Assembly (NCBI GenBank): GCA_021442845.1
Contig: JABUSD010000249.1
Span: 1-22,866, forward strand
Reading direction: 5' to 3'
DNA: 22,866 nt
Source: Holdemanella sp.
Lineage (GTDB): Bacteria > Bacillota_I > Bacilli_A > Erysipelotrichales > Erysipelotrichaceae
Both the position numbers and the translations under genes were made by a program. Within the stretch, counting starts at the first letter, position 1. Each line of letters starts with the position of its first letter. Positions 3,650 to 8,809 of the stretch are shown here, piece after piece. The notes under the pieces are model-generated. The model saw only the letters and a program-made list of their open reading frames with translations, was not told the origin of the DNA and searched no databases.

Positions 3650-3677
3650 CAAAAAAATGACTCCATGATGGAGTCAT
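3650..3677 (-). terminator. Terminator of the VTC-DUF4956-CotH unit
   Basis: On the minus strand ATGACTCC pairs with GGAGTCAT (stem arms 3670-3677 and 3657-3664 on the plus strand), followed by seven T. It begins at the stop codon of the CotH-like gene. Confidence 0.85.
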
Positions 3678-5464
3678 TAATCAGGAGGATTCATGTTAGG
3701 AGGTGTAAAATTTTCCTGATTATTAAAATCTTTTCTATCCGGTTTTTCAAATCCATTAAAGTCCTGTGTAGGCATTTCACCATTTTCAAATGGATTGTTT
3801 GGCATTTCACCATTATCCATTGGCATCTGTTGGCCACCTTGTCCATTATTCATTGTACCCATATCGGATAGATTTAAAGTGCCTGTATCCACCTTATCGG
3901 TATTGCCATTCAACTGTTGTTTCACAGCCTGTAAGCGAAGTGTGGCAAAGGTTGAAATGGCATCCTTAGCTGTATCAAATTCTTCTAATGTACAGAATTT
4001 TGTTGGATCTTTTTCCACATAAGGACGAATCAGATTGTAGGTTTCTTCAATCATGGATTCTAATTTGTTGGAATTGATAAATTCATTAAATAATGTATGA
4101 TACATCTCTATATATTTTTCATTAGAGAAGATCCATCCTACCATAGGACGATCATTGACATCTCCATTGACAGGACTATCAATGGAAGAATTAATAATAC
4201 CAGAGGCATCATTTCCCTGGAAAGTACCGAAGGCAAGGTTGTAATCCCATGGAATCATGCTGAGTTTACCATCTTCTTCATAGAGATAATAGTTGTGAAC
4301 CATGGTACCTGTATAGCTGTCTTCGTTGCATACAAAGTTGTGGATGACAAAGTAACGAAGGACTTCTTCCATATTAATCGTATTTTCGAGATCTTTATAT
4401 TCACTTAGATTCTTTAAGGAGGCGATTAAACGATCCTTATCTGTATTGGTAATCTTAGTCTTGGCATTGTTGAAGATATTGGTATAGCTATCATAGTTAT
4501 CATCGATATATTTCAGTTTTACATCATCACTTCCCATGCCACCACCTTTACCACCCTGGCCTGGCTGATCACCCTGAGGCATCTGTTCTGGCTGGAAATC
4601 ATCAGGAATCTGCATATCATTCTGTGGCATCTGTCCAGGCTGGAAATCATCCGGCATCTGCATATCGCCCTGTGGCATCTGTCCAGGCTGGAAATCATCT
4701 GGTATCTGCATATCGCCCTGTGGCATATTGCCTTGTTGAGGCTGATTTTGGGTTGCCTGTGTTGTTGTATCGGTTGATTGTTCATTCTGTCTGGCTTCAA
4801 AGTCTTCCATGTTGAACTCTTTTCCATTTCCTCTTCCACCACCAAAATCAGAGCTATCAGGCTTGTATAGATTTCCACTTGTTGAATCATAGTTTCTTGA
4901 TAGGAATGAATCTTCAATGCCTTCGACTGCTAAGTAAAGTCCCCAGTCTTCATTGTTGACAGTAATATAGGCATAGCTGCATAAAGGCGAATCCACCCCA
5001 AATTCATTCATCATCTGATAGACGAGATAATCCTTCATCATGGTATTATCCTGAATTAAATTGTTTAGGCATAGCTTATCCAGTCCATAATAACTCAATG
5101 TATCATCATACTGGTCAAATTCCAGCTTAAAGCTATAACGAGAACTTCCCATTGATTTGACATTGGATAGCGATGTGTTTCCTTTGGCACGGATGCCAAC
5201 ATTGGCATATTTCTCTCCATCAATGACTAATGTGCAGGAAGTATATTCTTCATTTTCACATGTTTCAATAAAGGAATCCCAATCATCCATTATTATGGAG
5301 ATGGAGTGGACTTTCGATGTATCAAACAAGCGGTTTTCATAACCCATTGTCCGTTTTGAAGCGAAACCATCGATTGTGGATAGGGACATGAAACCAGCGG
5401 TTATTACCAAACCAAAGAGAATCAAGGCAATACAGATCTTATCAAAATATCTGCTTGTTGACAT
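3677..5464 (-). CDS. CotH kinase family protein, membrane-anchored, with internal repeats
   Basis: This 595-residue protein has an N-terminal hydrophobic segment (residues 10-28) after a short basic head, so it is probably secreted but tethered to the membrane. The CotH-like kinase domain is split: GIRAKGNTSLSN and FKLEFDQY lie in the first half (residues 90-118), and the metal-site motif SMIPWDYNLAFG (402-413, D407) lies in the second. Between them sits a low-complexity insert (about 205-312) with three 16-residue repeats. The C-terminal 60 residues are Asn/Met/Pro-rich with NGEMP repeats. Bacillus CotH phosphorylates spore-coat proteins; the target here is unknown. It starts 3 nt after the DUF4956 stop with only a weak GGGG ribosome site, suggesting translational coupling. 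The VTC/DUF4956/CotH grouping is a recurrent but poorly characterised arrangement. Confidence 0.88.
   Translation of the reverse strand: MSTSRYFDKICIALILFGLVITAGFMSLSTIDGFASKRTMGYENRLFDTSKVHSISIIMDDWDSFIETCENEEYTSCTLVIDGEKYANVGIRAKGNTSLSNVKSMGSSRYSFKLEFDQYDDTLSYYGLDKLCLNNLIQDNTMMKDYLVYQMMNEFGVDSPLCSYAYITVNNEDWGLYLAVEGIEDSFLSRNYDSTSGNLYKPDSSDFGGGRGNGKEFNMEDFEARQNEQSTDTTTQATQNQPQQGNMPQGDMQIPDDFQPGQMPQGDMQMPDDFQPGQMPQNDMQIPDDFQPEQMPQGDQPGQGGKGGGMGSDDVKLKYIDDNYDSYTNIFNNAKTKITNTDKDRLIASLKNLSEYKDLENTINMEEVLRYFVIHNFVCNEDSYTGTMVHNYYLYEEDGKLSMIPWDYNLAFGTFQGNDASGIINSSIDSPVNGDVNDRPMVGWIFSNEKYIEMYHTLFNEFINSNKLESMIEETYNLIRPYVEKDPTKFCTLEEFDTAKDAISTFATLRLQAVKQQLNGNTDKVDTGTLNLSDMGTMNNGQGGQQMPMDNGEMPNNPFENGEMPTQDFNGFEKPDRKDFNNQENFTPPNMNPPD
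4568..4726 (-). repeat. In-frame 48-bp tandem repeats inside the CotH-like gene
   Basis: Three consecutive 48-bp units (4679-4726, 4631-4678, 4583-4630) encode MPQGDMQIPDDFQPGQ, MPQGDMQMPDDFQPGQ and MPQNDMQIPDDFQPEQ (residues 247-294), and a fourth partial unit encodes MPQGD (295-299). The units keep the reading frame. The near-identity at DNA level suggests recent duplication and possible length variation between strains. Confidence 0.92.
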
Positions 5465-5467
5465 AGA

Positions 5468-6139
5468 TTACCCCATGTATTCGCCATTGTAGCTTACTAA
5501 TACAGCGCTGTTTACACCTTGAATGGTAGATAACTGGTTAATGAAATCGGTATTTTCACTCTTTAAACGGATTTCCATATTGATTTCATTTAAACCTTTT
5601 TGTACGGATTTGCTTTTGATAACGCATTTTTCAACATTTGTCTGAATAAAGCTCATAGCGCTCTTTTCAGATTCATATCCATTGCAGGAAAGAACAAGAA
5701 TATAGGGATTCTTATATGTCTTCTTATTGACAAAGATCAATAGAATGACACCAATGATGATAGAACCGAAAAGGGCAAGTGGAATCATACCAGCGGCAAG
5801 GATAATACCAGCGGCAATAGACCAGAATAGAAAGGCAATATCCAATGGTTCTTTGATAGCGGTTCTAAAACGGACAATCGATAATGCACCAACCATACCT
5901 AATGAAAGCACAACGTTAGAAGTAACGGCTAAAATAACTTGTGATGTGATCATTGTCAAGGCAATTAAGGTAACCCCAAAGGAAGAGGAATACATAACTC
6001 CCTGGTATGTCTTCTTATAGACAAAGAAGATAAACAAACCAATAATGAAAGCTAGCACAATGGTAATCACCATATCTATCAGGCTAACGGCTGCGATGTT
6101 TTCTAAAAAGCTTGATTTAAAAATGTCTGTAAATGTCAT
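5468..6139 (-). CDS. DUF4956 membrane protein
   Basis: The 223-residue protein has about four or five membrane helices (around residues 20-40, 53-72, 76-92, 102-119 and 120-138) and a soluble alpha/beta C-terminal domain (about 145-223). The most diagnostic stretch is GMVGALSIVRFRTAIKEP (81-98), typical of DUF4956 proteins. Its activity is unknown. It lies 18 nt after the VTC gene with AAGGAG before its ATG, and 3 nt before the CotH-like gene, so the three are almost surely one transcript. The basic, conserved cytoplasmic loop is a plausible place for polyphosphate or nucleotide contact, but that is inference. Confidence 0.9.
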   Translation of the reverse strand: MTFTDIFKSSFLENIAAVSLIDMVITIVLAFIIGLFIFFVYKKTYQGVMYSSSFGVTLIALTMITSQVILAVTSNVVLSLGMVGALSIVRFRTAIKEPLDIAFLFWSIAAGIILAAGMIPLALFGSIIIGVILLIFVNKKTYKNPYILVLSCNGYESEKSAMSFIQTNVEKCVIKSKSVQKGLNEINMEIRLKSENTDFINQLSTIQGVNSAVLVSYNGEYMG

Positions 6140-6157: not shown

Positions 6158-6829
6158 CTATCGATATATGCGACATTGTTCATATTTTGAAAATGCCGAA
6201 GCTCTTCTTCCTGGAATTGTAACGGCATCCTTGATAATGGATGGCAAGAAATCATCCCATTTCACTTCTAAGATGATAGGACTGTCTCCTGCCGGGATTG
6301 TGATTGTCTCAGGATTTAGAAAATCAATGCGATTTTCACCTGTACGAATGGCATAATCCATTGTGATGCGTACATTTCCCGGTTTATAGACAAAAGCTTC
6401 TCTTGTATAATCCACGATTGTCTTTGGTCTAAGTCCCTGGGTATGCATCTTAAAATACAGCTCCTGACATAGAGGATGGGCTTTCATCATCCAGTCAAGC
6501 TTTCCATCAATGATGCTTTGCGCCTGCTCTTTTGTGATTGTAGCACTTATCTTCTGACACAGTCCATTGATCTTTGATTTCTTTTCTAAGACGATAAAGG
6601 AAGCATCGTGGTTATAATAACGAATCCTGAACTTCTCTCTTCGATTGACACCATCTATCTTGTCATAGAGAGCTTTATCATTGGGACTATCAAAATACAG
6701 GCTTCGTATTTCATATTTCCCATTGATGGTATGTTCATCGATATGCATGATGGCTTTCAGTCGCATACGCAACGTTAATAGATCGGCATAATTGATTTCA
6801 TGTTTCCATTCATGACGATATTCACTCAA
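6158..6829 (-). CDS. VTC-domain protein (polyphosphate polymerase fold)
   Basis: The 223-residue protein is a stand-alone VTC domain, the triphosphate-tunnel fold that makes polyphosphate from ATP in yeast Vtc4. Tunnel-lining basic and acidic residues are in place: RHEWKHE (K9), YEIRSLYFDS (R42), REKFRIRYYN (64-73), VLEKKSK (80-86), LEVKWD (187-192) and SAFSKYEQCR (211-220). No membrane segment is present; the DUF4956 partner probably holds it at the membrane. The start is TTG: AAGGTGA (6836-6842) lies 6 nt upstream, and there is no usable in-frame ATG. It is the first gene of the unit, driven by the divergent promoter opposite the two-component genes. Whether it truly polymerises phosphate is not shown by sequence. 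Confidence 0.9.
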   Translation of the reverse strand: MSEYRHEWKHEINYADLLTLRMRLKAIMHIDEHTINGKYEIRSLYFDSPNDKALYDKIDGVNRREKFRIRYYNHDASFIVLEKKSKINGLCQKISATITKEQAQSIIDGKLDWMMKAHPLCQELYFKMHTQGLRPKTIVDYTREAFVYKPGNVRITMDYAIRTGENRIDFLNPETITIPAGDSPIILEVKWDDFLPSIIKDAVTIPGRRASAFSKYEQCRIYR

Positions 6830-6859
6830 AATTAATCACCTTCTTTTCACATGTCTAGT

Positions 6860-6888
6860 GTATAAAGTAAAACTGAAATGATACTGAA
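6860..6888 (-). promoter_or_regulatory. Candidate promoter of the VTC-DUF4956-CotH unit
   Basis: On the minus strand TTCAGT (6883-6888) at the -35 position is followed after 17 bp by TTATAC (6860-6865). A second TTCAGT lies within the spacer. Transcription would begin near 6853, leaving about 23 nt with the AAGGTGA ribosome site. The -10 mirrors that of the response regulator about the operator centre. The -35 is far from consensus, as expected for an activator-dependent promoter. Confidence 0.5.
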
Positions 6889-6921
6889 AAAAAATATTTT
6901 TTTCTTCAGTTTTATTTCAGT
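6872..6921. promoter_or_regulatory. Symmetric double direct-repeat operator, probably for the response regulator
   Basis: TTCAGT occurs twice on the plus strand at 6905-6910 and 6916-6921 (11-bp period) and twice on the minus strand at 6883-6888 and 6872-6877 (same period). The four hexamers are exactly symmetric about 6896.5, with an A/T tract at the centre. Hexamers repeated every 11 bp are the classical target form of OmpR/PhoB-type winged-helix regulators. The adjacent response regulator is of that class, so autoregulation plus control of the divergent unit is the natural reading; binding itself is inference. Confidence 0.7.
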
Positions 6922-6933
6922 CTGTAGTATTAA
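6905..6933 (+). promoter_or_regulatory. Candidate promoter of the response regulator gene
   Basis: TTCAGT (6905-6910) is followed after 17 bp by TATTAA (6928-6933). Initiation is expected at about 6940-6943, that is, at or within three bases of the ATG at 6943. The repeat nearest the -10 ends 6 bp before it, the same gap as on the other strand. Confidence 0.5.
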
Positions 6934-6942
6934 TATGAATGT

Positions 6943-7620
6943 ATGAAAGTATTAATTGTAGAAGATGAAAAATTATTAGCAGACTCTTTAAAGGTTATGT
7001 TAGTGAAGAAAGGCTTTGAAGTGGATGCGGTATATGATGGCATAACAGGAAAGTATTATGCCCAGACAGGAATCTATGATCTGTTGATATTGGATGTGAT
7101 GATGCCAGGGATGAATGGCTATGAGCTGGCAAGAAGTGTACGAAAGAAGAAGATAGGAACATCCATTCTGATGTTGACAGCGAAATCGGAAATTGAAGAT
7201 CGGATTACCGGCTTAAATGCAGGCGCTGATTATTATCTGACAAAGCCCTTTGATCTAAGAGAGCTGATGGCATGCATCAATGCGTTATTGCGAAGACAGG
7301 GCGTGCAGGTTGATGTATTGAGATTAGGAAATACATCTTTGGATTTAGGAAGTGCCATGATGTCAAGTGATGTCAATTCTATCCGCTTATCCGCCAAGGA
7401 ATTTGATATTATGCGTTATCTGTTATCTGCAGGATCAAACAATGTATCCAAGGAAGCCATATTGGCACGTGTCTGGGGATTTGATAGTGAAGCGGTTGAA
7501 AACCATGTAGAGGTATATATTGGCTTTTTAAGAAAGAAATTGAAATCCATCCATTCCAATATTCGGATTGAATCCATCCGTAAATTAGGATACCATCTGG
7601 AGGTCGATGAAGATGATTAA
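6943..7620 (+). CDS. OmpR/PhoB-family response regulator
   Basis: This 225-residue protein has a receiver domain (1-115) with the acidic pocket at E7-D8, phospho-acceptor D51 (LILDVMMPG), T79 and K101 (LTKPFD), and a winged-helix DNA-binding domain (about 125-222; LSAKEFDIMRYL, VSKEAILARVWG, VEVYIGFLRKKL). It should be phosphorylated by the kinase encoded just downstream and bind DNA as a dimer on direct repeats. The start is fixed by the canonical MKVLIVEDE, yet no ribosome site precedes it: the DNA before the ATG is the promoter itself. The likely target is the TTCAGT operator in the gap to the VTC gene. The stimulus is not evident. Confidence 0.96.
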   Translation: MKVLIVEDEKLLADSLKVMLVKKGFEVDAVYDGITGKYYAQTGIYDLLILDVMMPGMNGYELARSVRKKKIGTSILMLTAKSEIEDRITGLNAGADYYLTKPFDLRELMACINALLRRQGVQVDVLRLGNTSLDLGSAMMSSDVNSIRLSAKEFDIMRYLLSAGSNNVSKEAILARVWGFDSEAVENHVEVYIGFLRKKLKSIHSNIRIESIRKLGYHLEVDEDD

Positions 7621-8809
7621 AAAATTAAGGATAAAATTCATCTGTATCAATATGGCAACCGTTGTTGTGATGTTATGTGCAATCTTTAGTTTATTCTATA
7701 TTTCCACAAAGAATAATATGGAAAATGAAAGCCTTCGTTCTATGCAGATGGCTATGGACCAGCCAAGAATGATGGAAGGGCCAGTCATGGATAATCATCT
7801 GCCTTATATCATCATTCAGGTAAATGAAGGCAAAACTATAGAGAAAGTGGATAGTGGAGCCTATACAATCACAAACCAGAGTGCTTTAGAGGAAATTGTA
7901 TCGGAAGTCATGAATTCCAATAAAACATATGATGTCATATCCAGATATTCTATGCGCTATCTGAAGCAGGATCGCATGAATGCACATTTTATCATCCTCA
8001 GTGATATATCGGATGAAATCAATACATTAAATTCGATTCTAAGAGTCTGTATCCTGATTGGTATATTCAGCTTTCTAGCTTTTCTTGTGATCAGCATTCT
8101 ATTATCTAAATGGGCAATTCAACCAGTGGAAGAGGCATGGAATCAGCAGCGCCAGTTTGTATCGGATGCATCGCATGAATTAAAGACACCTTTGGCTGTT
8201 ATCTGTACCAATTCGGATCTATTATCATCGAATGAATATAGTGATGAAGAAAAGAATCAGTTCATATCCAATATTCAGACTGTATCCAGACATATGAAGG
8301 TTCTTGTTGAACAGATGTTAGAACTGGCAAGAGCCGATAATGGAACCATTAAAAGCACAATGGAAGAAGTGGATGTCTATCCTGTTGTATCGGAAGTTGC
8401 CCTTACAATGGAAGCCTTACTATTTGAAAAGGGACATGAAATCACTCTAGATCTCTGTGAAGATGTCAAAGTTATTGCCAATCGGGAAAAATTAGGACAG
8501 GTTGTTGAAATATTACTGGATAATGCGGGTAAATATGCAAGTGAAAATGGAAAGATTTCTATATCTTTAAAGAAGTTCAAACATCATTGTGTATTTTATG
8601 TTGCCAATGAAGGAAGTCCAATCCCAAAAACAGAATTGAATAATCTATTCAAGCGATTCTATCGATTGGATAGTGCCAGACAAAGAGATGGAAGCTTTGG
8701 ACTTGGCTTATCCATTGCCTATCAGTTTGTGAACGATTTTAAAGGGAAAATCTGGGCGGATAGTAAAGATGGAATCAATACATTCTATGTACAGCTTCCT
8801 CTAAATTGA
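7613..8809 (+). CDS. Sensor histidine kinase
   Basis: The protein (398 residues) has two membrane helices (about 8-31 and 143-165) enclosing an extracellular segment of about 110 residues with no recognised sensor fold. Next come the H-box FVSDASHELKTPL (H188), N-box LLDNAGKYA (N304), F-box LFKRFYRLD (345-353) and G-box DGSFGLGLS (359-367). All catalytic elements are intact. The start at 7613 is chosen because GGAGG (7599-7603) sits 9 bp before it; the ATG at 7607 is only 3 bp away. It overlaps the regulator gene by 8 nt, so the two are translationally coupled. A classical HAMP domain is not obvious; a short linker (about 166-180) joins the second helix to the H-box. The signal is unknown; a cell-envelope cue would fit its neighbours. 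Confidence 0.94.
   Translation: MIKKLRIKFICINMATVVVMLCAIFSLFYISTKNNMENESLRSMQMAMDQPRMMEGPVMDNHLPYIIIQVNEGKTIEKVDSGAYTITNQSALEEIVSEVMNSNKTYDVISRYSMRYLKQDRMNAHFIILSDISDEINTLNSILRVCILIGIFSFLAFLVISILLSKWAIQPVEEAWNQQRQFVSDASHELKTPLAVICTNSDLLSSNEYSDEEKNQFISNIQTVSRHMKVLVEQMLELARADNGTIKSTMEEVDVYPVVSEVALTMEALLFEKGHEITLDLCEDVKVIANREKLGQVVEILLDNAGKYASENGKISISLKKFKHHCVFYVANEGSPIPKTELNNLFKRFYRLDSARQRDGSFGLGLSIAYQFVNDFKGKIWADSKDGINTFYVQLPLN

Follow-up and report, generated by a model that had tools for sequence, protein, structure and literature searches.

Direct repeats with an 11-bp period close to the -10 element are a shared feature of PmrA/BasR, PhoB, and SARP operators. CiaR and OmpR-type regulators bind an 11-bp repeat as a head-to-tail dimer, and the activator replaces the -35 element; some OmpR-family regulators repress from sites over the -35 region. 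Judged by such general features, the half-sites and -10 spacing of PmrA/BasR, PhoB, and SARP operators fit the locus described here less well than those of CiaR.

Streptococcal CiaR has the recognition helix region VVEVYVSKVRKKL and binds NTTAAG-N5-TTTAAG, and its promoters have been searched for with a -10 element ten bases past the last half-site; in the parts of that work drawn on here, CiaH is reported from streptococci only (PMC3091779). HtrA belongs to the streptococcal CiaRH regulon, and in BAS0540-BAS0541, the CiaRH homologue of a Bacillus, the OmpR-type regulator binds TTTAAG-N5-TTTAAG, its own promoter included, as detected by EMSA (PMC4938410). The Bacillus system thus places an OmpR-type regulator on 11-bp repeats as we propose below, but the excerpts considered name no VTC or CotH target. 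In streptococci and clostridia, the pel locus is adjoined by accessory genes encoding VTC, CotH, DUF4956, and DUF4832 proteins, a gene set shared with our locus, although no regulator or operator is named in the sections concerned (PMC7112168). VTC genes also occur in a clostridial locus, for which the corresponding sections name no CiaR-type regulator (PMC2879425, PMC4983038). Titles and abstracts of the open-licence literature, in which CiaR together with polyphosphate was covered in part, yielded no CiaR-type link to VTC, DUF4956, or CotH.

Here we describe two putative operators of this type in a 22,866-nucleotide stretch of Holdemanella sp. DNA (the window). We propose, with a probability of roughly 85%, that they belong to two divergent, activator-dependent CiaR-like promoters, and that the phosphorylated response regulator encoded at 6943-7620 would bind both, driving its own gene and the kinase on one side and VTC-DUF4956-CotH on the other. 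Promoters of this kind are known already; to judge by the open-licence literature searched, the half-site variant and the regulon link are new.

Gene content of the window

Ten of the 25 listed open frames of the window were scanned for protein families. On the forward strand, an ATG at 6943 opens the gene of a CiaR-like response regulator (6943-7620), whose receiver domain (PF00072, 98.9 bits) and winged helix (Trans_reg_C, PF00486, 62.1 bits) place it in the OmpR/PhoB family; its recognition helix is HVEVYIGFLRKKL, and the helix region as a whole reads WGFDSEAVENHVEVYIGFLRKKL. The next gene encodes a sensor histidine kinase (7607-8809, +; PF00512 and PF02518) and is followed by genes for signal peptidase II and an RluA-family pseudouridine synthase.

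On the reverse strand, three adjacent genes with confirmed Pfam families form the VTC-DUF4956-CotH set. The first encodes a polyphosphate-polymerase-like VTC-domain protein (6158-6829, -; PF09359, E = 2.6e-40) and begins with a TTG at 6829 accompanied by a Shine-Dalgarno-like sequence. It is followed by genes for a DUF4956 protein (5468-6139, -; PF16316, E = 1.8e-9), a CotH-kinase-domain protein (3677-5464, -; PF08757, E = 4.1e-57), and then a metallo-beta-lactamase-fold protein. An MgtC/SapB-family model (NF007431) also matches residues 71-211 of the DUF4956 protein, but weakly and far under the cut-off (E = 7.4e-7). At 443-2026 the window encodes a leucine-rich-repeat protein, which matched class 1 internalin models far under their curated cut-offs.

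Paired operators and predicted promoters

Between the regulator and VTC genes, each strand carries a single exact TTCAGT-N5-TTCAGT, the reverse strand at 6872-6888 and the forward strand at 6905-6921, and all four TTCAGT copies are symmetric about 6896.5, just as the preliminary description had it. Extended by one base, these are a VTC-facing operator at 6872-6889 (-) and a regulator-facing operator at 6904-6921 (+), each composed of two half-sites with an 11-bp period. The two TTCAGT pairs are separated by 16 bp of A+T-rich sequence (6889-6904), the length of which varies among relatives.

We searched the genome assembly (2,201,301 bp in 430 contigs, 90% complete) for TTCAGT-N5-TTCAGT, a search that had been suggested earlier, and the only exact matches were these two. 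Allowing up to one mismatch gave 11 genome matches, against 18 for a reversed control pattern, so the motif has no general enrichment in the genome. Within the window, up to two mismatches gave 7 matches against 2.97 expected, a count reached by 3 of 100 shuffles, and only two of the 7 are exact. When the 170 bp before the regulator were dinucleotide-shuffled, a full-score TTMAG pair (M = A or C) appeared on both strands in 0 of 5000 shuffles and on either strand in 13. These counts bear on a reading in which no regulator is involved and the region is either a repeat that arose by chance or a terminator-like or structural palindrome rich in A+T. The A+T-rich centre and the inverted-repeat form of the whole would suit such an element; there is, however, no terminator-like site in 6600-7200, no shuffle reproduces both pairs, and relatives conserve the pairs around a centre of variable length, leaving this reading a negligible likelihood.

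We tested the promoter rule NTTMAG-N5-NTTMAG-N10-(-10), and both operators of the window fit it: TTTCAG-TATCA-TTTCAG-N10-TACACT on the VTC side, with the predicted -10 hexamer at 6857-6862 (-), and CTTCAG-TTTTA-TTTCAG-N10-TAATAT on the regulator side, with the predicted hexamer at 6931-6936 (+). Both hexamers lie 10 bp past the last TTTCAG and match the consensus in only 4 of 6 letters, which counts against the two-promoter reading. The -10 hexamers proposed previously, at 6860-6865 and 6928-6933, were described as mirror-placed. That relation is true of both placements, because the two promoters share the same inner geometry; the positions themselves are probably 3 bp off, as judged by the N10 rule taken from the VTC-facing promoters of relatives. 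The regulator start codon lies 6 nt past TAATAT, and since the predicted hexamer ends that close to the ATG, the regulator mRNA may be leaderless, with its transcription start placed accordingly by prediction. Scanning 6600-7200 for the consensus turned up no sigma-70 -35/-10 pair; shuffled sequence gave 3.2 on average.

The half-sites overlie the -35 region, a place from which some OmpR-family regulators repress; read as repressor operators, they would let the regulator repress its own gene and VTC alike. Against this, the N10 distance to the -10 element together with the lack of a -35 element is the geometry of a CiaR-activated promoter, as far as it is described in the parts of PMC3091779 considered, and it is kept in all 16 VTC-facing sites listed below. 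We regard repression as unlikely, and we infer that the window regulator binds here and that it activates.

The likeness to the CiaR promoters of Streptococcus, as set out in the sources cited above, extends to the 11-bp direct repeat, the N10 distance to the -10 element, and a similar helix (VVEVYVSKVRKKL vs HVEVYIGFLRKKL in the window). They differ in the half-sites, TTTAAG in Streptococcus and TTTCAG or CTTCAG in the window, and in the target, which in the window is VTC-DUF4956-CotH. Measured against the strict form NTTAAG-N5-TTTAAG, the window keeps the period, the G, and the -10 at 10 bp, yet in each of its four half-sites a C stands at the third position of TTAAG, and we therefore label these promoters a CiaR-like variant and not CiaR promoters. 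The helix HVEVYIGFLRKKL is likewise similar but not identical to the CiaR helix VVEVYVSK[VI]RKKL (with V/I changes). Because CiaH is reported from streptococci only in the parts of PMC3091779 drawn on, we call the window regulator CiaR-like rather than an orthologue. SARP-like activation, which had been offered as a parallel, is rejected: the neighboring gene encodes an OmpR-family regulator beside a kinase, the geometry fits the CiaR rule, and CiaR is the better model.

Conservation of the operators in divergent loci

Two sets of regulator loci were assembled by protein-sequence search. A family set, drawn from 272 family genomes at E <= 1e-50 (33 matches listed), comprised 30 loci, and a named set comprised the best 80 loci from a genome-contig collection, found with a search that included the recognition helix. 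A VTC profile was run over all 110 loci, the window included, and among the matches listed VTC is divergent from the regulator in 16 of the 110 (the window, L040, with L042, L049, L051, L059, L060, L172, L173, L174, L175, L176, L179, L181, L184, L185, and L188). VTC is the second gene in L060 and is split over two frames in L175. The ten named divergent loci are metagenome bins labeled Oscillospiraceae, Ruminococcus, Lachnospiraceae, Clostridia, Clostridiaceae, Eubacteriales, and Coriobacteriaceae, and the 16 loci are not independent of one another. Their regulators share 42-88% identity and fall into 6 clusters at 60% and 11 at 70%, and the range of identity together with the 6 clusters indicates that the loci are related yet do not form one recent family.

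All 16 divergent loci listed have a VTC-facing pair that matches 9 or more of the 10 letters, and in 13 of them it matches 10 of 10; the regulator-facing pair is present in 14 of the 16, with 10 of 10 letters each time, and is absent from L175 and L176. Orthologous loci lacking the repeats had been named as the observation that would speak against a shared regulator, and none of the 16 listed lacks the VTC-facing site. Within 170 bp, full-score pairs at 11 bp occur in 14 of the 16 listed loci facing the regulator and in 12 facing VTC, against shuffle means of 0.035 and 0.02 of 16, respectively, and any other period from 6 to 20 gives full-score pairs in at most 1 of the 16. With the 9-of-10-letter score over the same 170 bp, the counts are 14 (regulator-facing) and 15 (VTC-facing); other periods then give as many as 5 of 16, and the shuffle values are 0.6 and 0.7.

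The -10 spacing is exact on the VTC side and looser on the regulator side, both sets of counts being given without a shuffle control. At exactly N10 from the VTC-facing site, 16 of 16 loci listed have a hexamer that carries A2 and T6 and matches in 4 or more of its 6 letters; in L060 a better hexamer lies at N15. Among the 14 regulator-facing sites, the distance is N10 in 8, N9 in 3, N11 in 1, and N21 in 2; within the N10 cases, L179 matches in 3 of 6 letters only, and L172 to L174 have a better hexamer at N13. The gap between operators in the 14 loci with both sites is 7, 8, 16, 18, 28, 39, 54, 63, or 64 bp. Because it ranges so widely, the exact mirror symmetry in the window is no functional constant; it is incidental, and a special role for it is rejected.

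Promoters of relatives mix TTAAG and TTCAG half-sites. In G129, both outer half-sites read TTAAGG where the window has TTCAGT. The G127 regulator, 71% identical to that of the window, has no VTC within the 3.7 kb fetched, and its two pairs are TTAAG-type. The joint half-site change in G129 and the TTAAG-type pairs of G127 link the sites to the regulator.

Pfam searches of the genes downstream found VTC-DUF4956-CotH in L172, VTC in L181, CotH in L188, VTC-DUF4956-Cthe_2159 in L184, and DUF4956 with Cthe_2159 in L185; the downstream genes of the other divergent loci were assigned from open frames alone. In L184 and L185, a Cthe_2159 carbohydrate-binding domain protein occupies the place of CotH after DUF4956. 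Two family regulators of the same type, in L050 and L057, have a divergent HtrA-like protease, judged from its translation, and such a protease is a known kind of CiaR target.

Predicted mechanism

Recurrence of this layout in distant relatives makes it very probable that both the regulator gene and the VTC operon are under the control of the regulator. The conservation of the sites in the divergent loci listed thus lends support to the earlier suggestion that the adjacent OmpR-type regulator serves both. Each promoter would consist of a head-to-tail pair of NTTMAG half-sites (here TTTCAG or CTTCAG) with an 11-bp period, a -10 element 10 bp away, and no recognizable -35 element. The phosphorylated CiaR-like regulator would most likely bind each pair as a dimer, its subunits head to tail along a single face of the helix, where it would substitute for the -35 contact and recruit RNA polymerase. 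One promoter would drive the regulator and kinase genes, giving autoregulation, and the other VTC-DUF4956-CotH.

Such a link would tie the widespread VTC-DUF4956-CotH sets to a CiaR-like two-component system and to a definite promoter rule, making their signal and function testable. It would also extend CiaR-like promoters, with a half-site variant, from streptococci and a Bacillus to loci labeled Oscillospiraceae, Lachnospiraceae, Ruminococcus, Clostridia, and Paenibacillus.

VTC loci with other arrangements

Nine named loci among those listed (L201, L204, L215, L217, L220, L222, L224, L228, and L245) have the regulator and VTC on one strand, with VTC downstream. A site with a -10 element at N10 stands directly before VTC in five of these nine regulator-kinase-VTC loci (L204, L215, L217, L220, and L222), in L201 a pair is visible by eye, with a period of 10 bp, and the remaining three have no pair before VTC. 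The genomes with CiaR-like promoters directly before VTC include that of Paenibacillus cellulositrophicus (L217). The family loci L045 and L064, with a piece of VTC downstream, have no site before it; L214 and L216, where VTC lies upstream on the same strand, were left outside the site scan. G191 (L311) carries the series regulator, next frame, VTC, DUF4956, and CotH, the last three Pfam-confirmed. Counting against the two-promoter reading, VTC in the sister genome G002 (L010) is 62% identical, with no regulator within 1.5 kb and no TTCAG pair upstream.

Also counting against that reading, a pair with a fitting -10 element was found in only 7 of 91 family VTC loci, two of which share upstream sequence, and the spacing is N10 in 4; at many other family VTC loci an open frame ends just upstream. 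In an unbiased scan of the 91 upstream regions, TTCA at a period of 11 ranked third, behind ATGG at 15 and TGGG at 21, which we take to be coding repeats in the upstream open frames because their periods are divisible by 3. Regarding the Pho regulon, a TIGR02136 (PstS) search of 16 genomes gave matches in 7.

A candidate lipoprotein target

The promoter rule predicts further targets, and one was found in the window genome. TTMAG-N6-TTMAG has 24 matches there, against 39 for the reversed control, and a -10 element at N9-11 accompanies 3 of the 24, namely both intergenic operators and a site at G000:C9:2441; a large regulon of the motif in this genome is thus unsupported. The third site, TTTCAG-TTTTA-TTTAAG-N10-TATACT, precedes a lipoprotein gene. 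This gene (G000:C9:2441-4421, also L303:2441-4421) encodes a repetitive 641-aa lipoprotein with no Pfam family and is the predicted third target.

Homologues of the lipoprotein occur in 70 of the 272 family genomes (E <= 1e-20). In 30 fetched loci with mechanically assigned starts, TTCA at an 11-bp period is present upstream in 24; the remaining periods between 6 and 20 give 0-3, and the opposite strand gives 2. Six loci have no TTCA pair. Among these, the scan finds TTMAG pairs in L341 and in L312, which comes from the genome of the window; inspection by eye shows TTTAAA/TTTAAC-N5-TTTAAG in L318 and L332; and L317 and L334 have neither. These predicted sites support a regulon that is small and made up of envelope proteins.

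A second OmpR-type regulator in relatives

Upstream of VTC, TTCA at period 11 occurs in 9 of the 91 family loci, against 0.6 in shuffles, and 8 of these 9 have no CiaR-like regulator in the fetched stretch. In 27 of 27 measured loci (30 fetched, all from genus g19), the gene of a second OmpR-family regulator, RR2 (helix RTLDTHMKLLRKDL), is preceded by a pair of the ATTCAG-N5-TTCAC type; at E <= 1e-62, RR2 matches in 224 of the 272 genomes. The adjoining regulator of the window could then be there by chance, the real ligand of the operators being the unlinked RR2 or its kin; VTC and other genes of relatives do have NTTCAS tandem arrays with no adjoining regulator. RR2 itself has no match at E <= 1e-62 in the window genome or in the four others of its genus, however, and TTMAG pairs accompany the CiaR-like regulator locus by locus. 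We therefore consider RR2 a very unlikely ligand here and retain the CiaR-like regulator in that role.

Working from few cases, we infer that two regulators may exchange over the same targets. A conserved envelope regulon, comprising the VTC-DUF4956-CotH or Cthe_2159 operon and the unlinked lipoprotein, would be governed, by way of tandem operators with an 11-bp period, by either of two OmpR-type regulators that can replace each other, one CiaR-like (TTMAG, often adjoining VTC) and the other RR2 (NTTCAS). On exchange, the targets would acquire other half-site letters but keep the 11-bp period and the -10 spacing, and the window genome would represent the CiaR-like case. We hold this proposal tentatively, at a little short of even odds. 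Within g19, 30 of 36 genomes match RR2 at about 1e-101 or better, and G127 and G129, the only two that carry the CiaR-like regulator, are among the other six. Counting against exchange, G012, G014, G015, and G174, which have CiaR-like divergent loci, also gave RR2-search matches at 1e-72 to 1e-76.

Four of nine fetched stretches (L304, L305, L309, and L310) were left out of the analysis. A triple TTCA-N7 pattern gave 46 matches in 16 chosen genomes, against 5 for the reversed control, and 11 of the 27 placed triple loci fall inside long open frames. The RR2 loci (L342-L371) show a -10-like hexamer near the ATG, and their mRNA, too, may be leaderless. At L306:581-639 (G082:C61), an array of consecutive TTCA-N7 units gives four overlapping triple matches.
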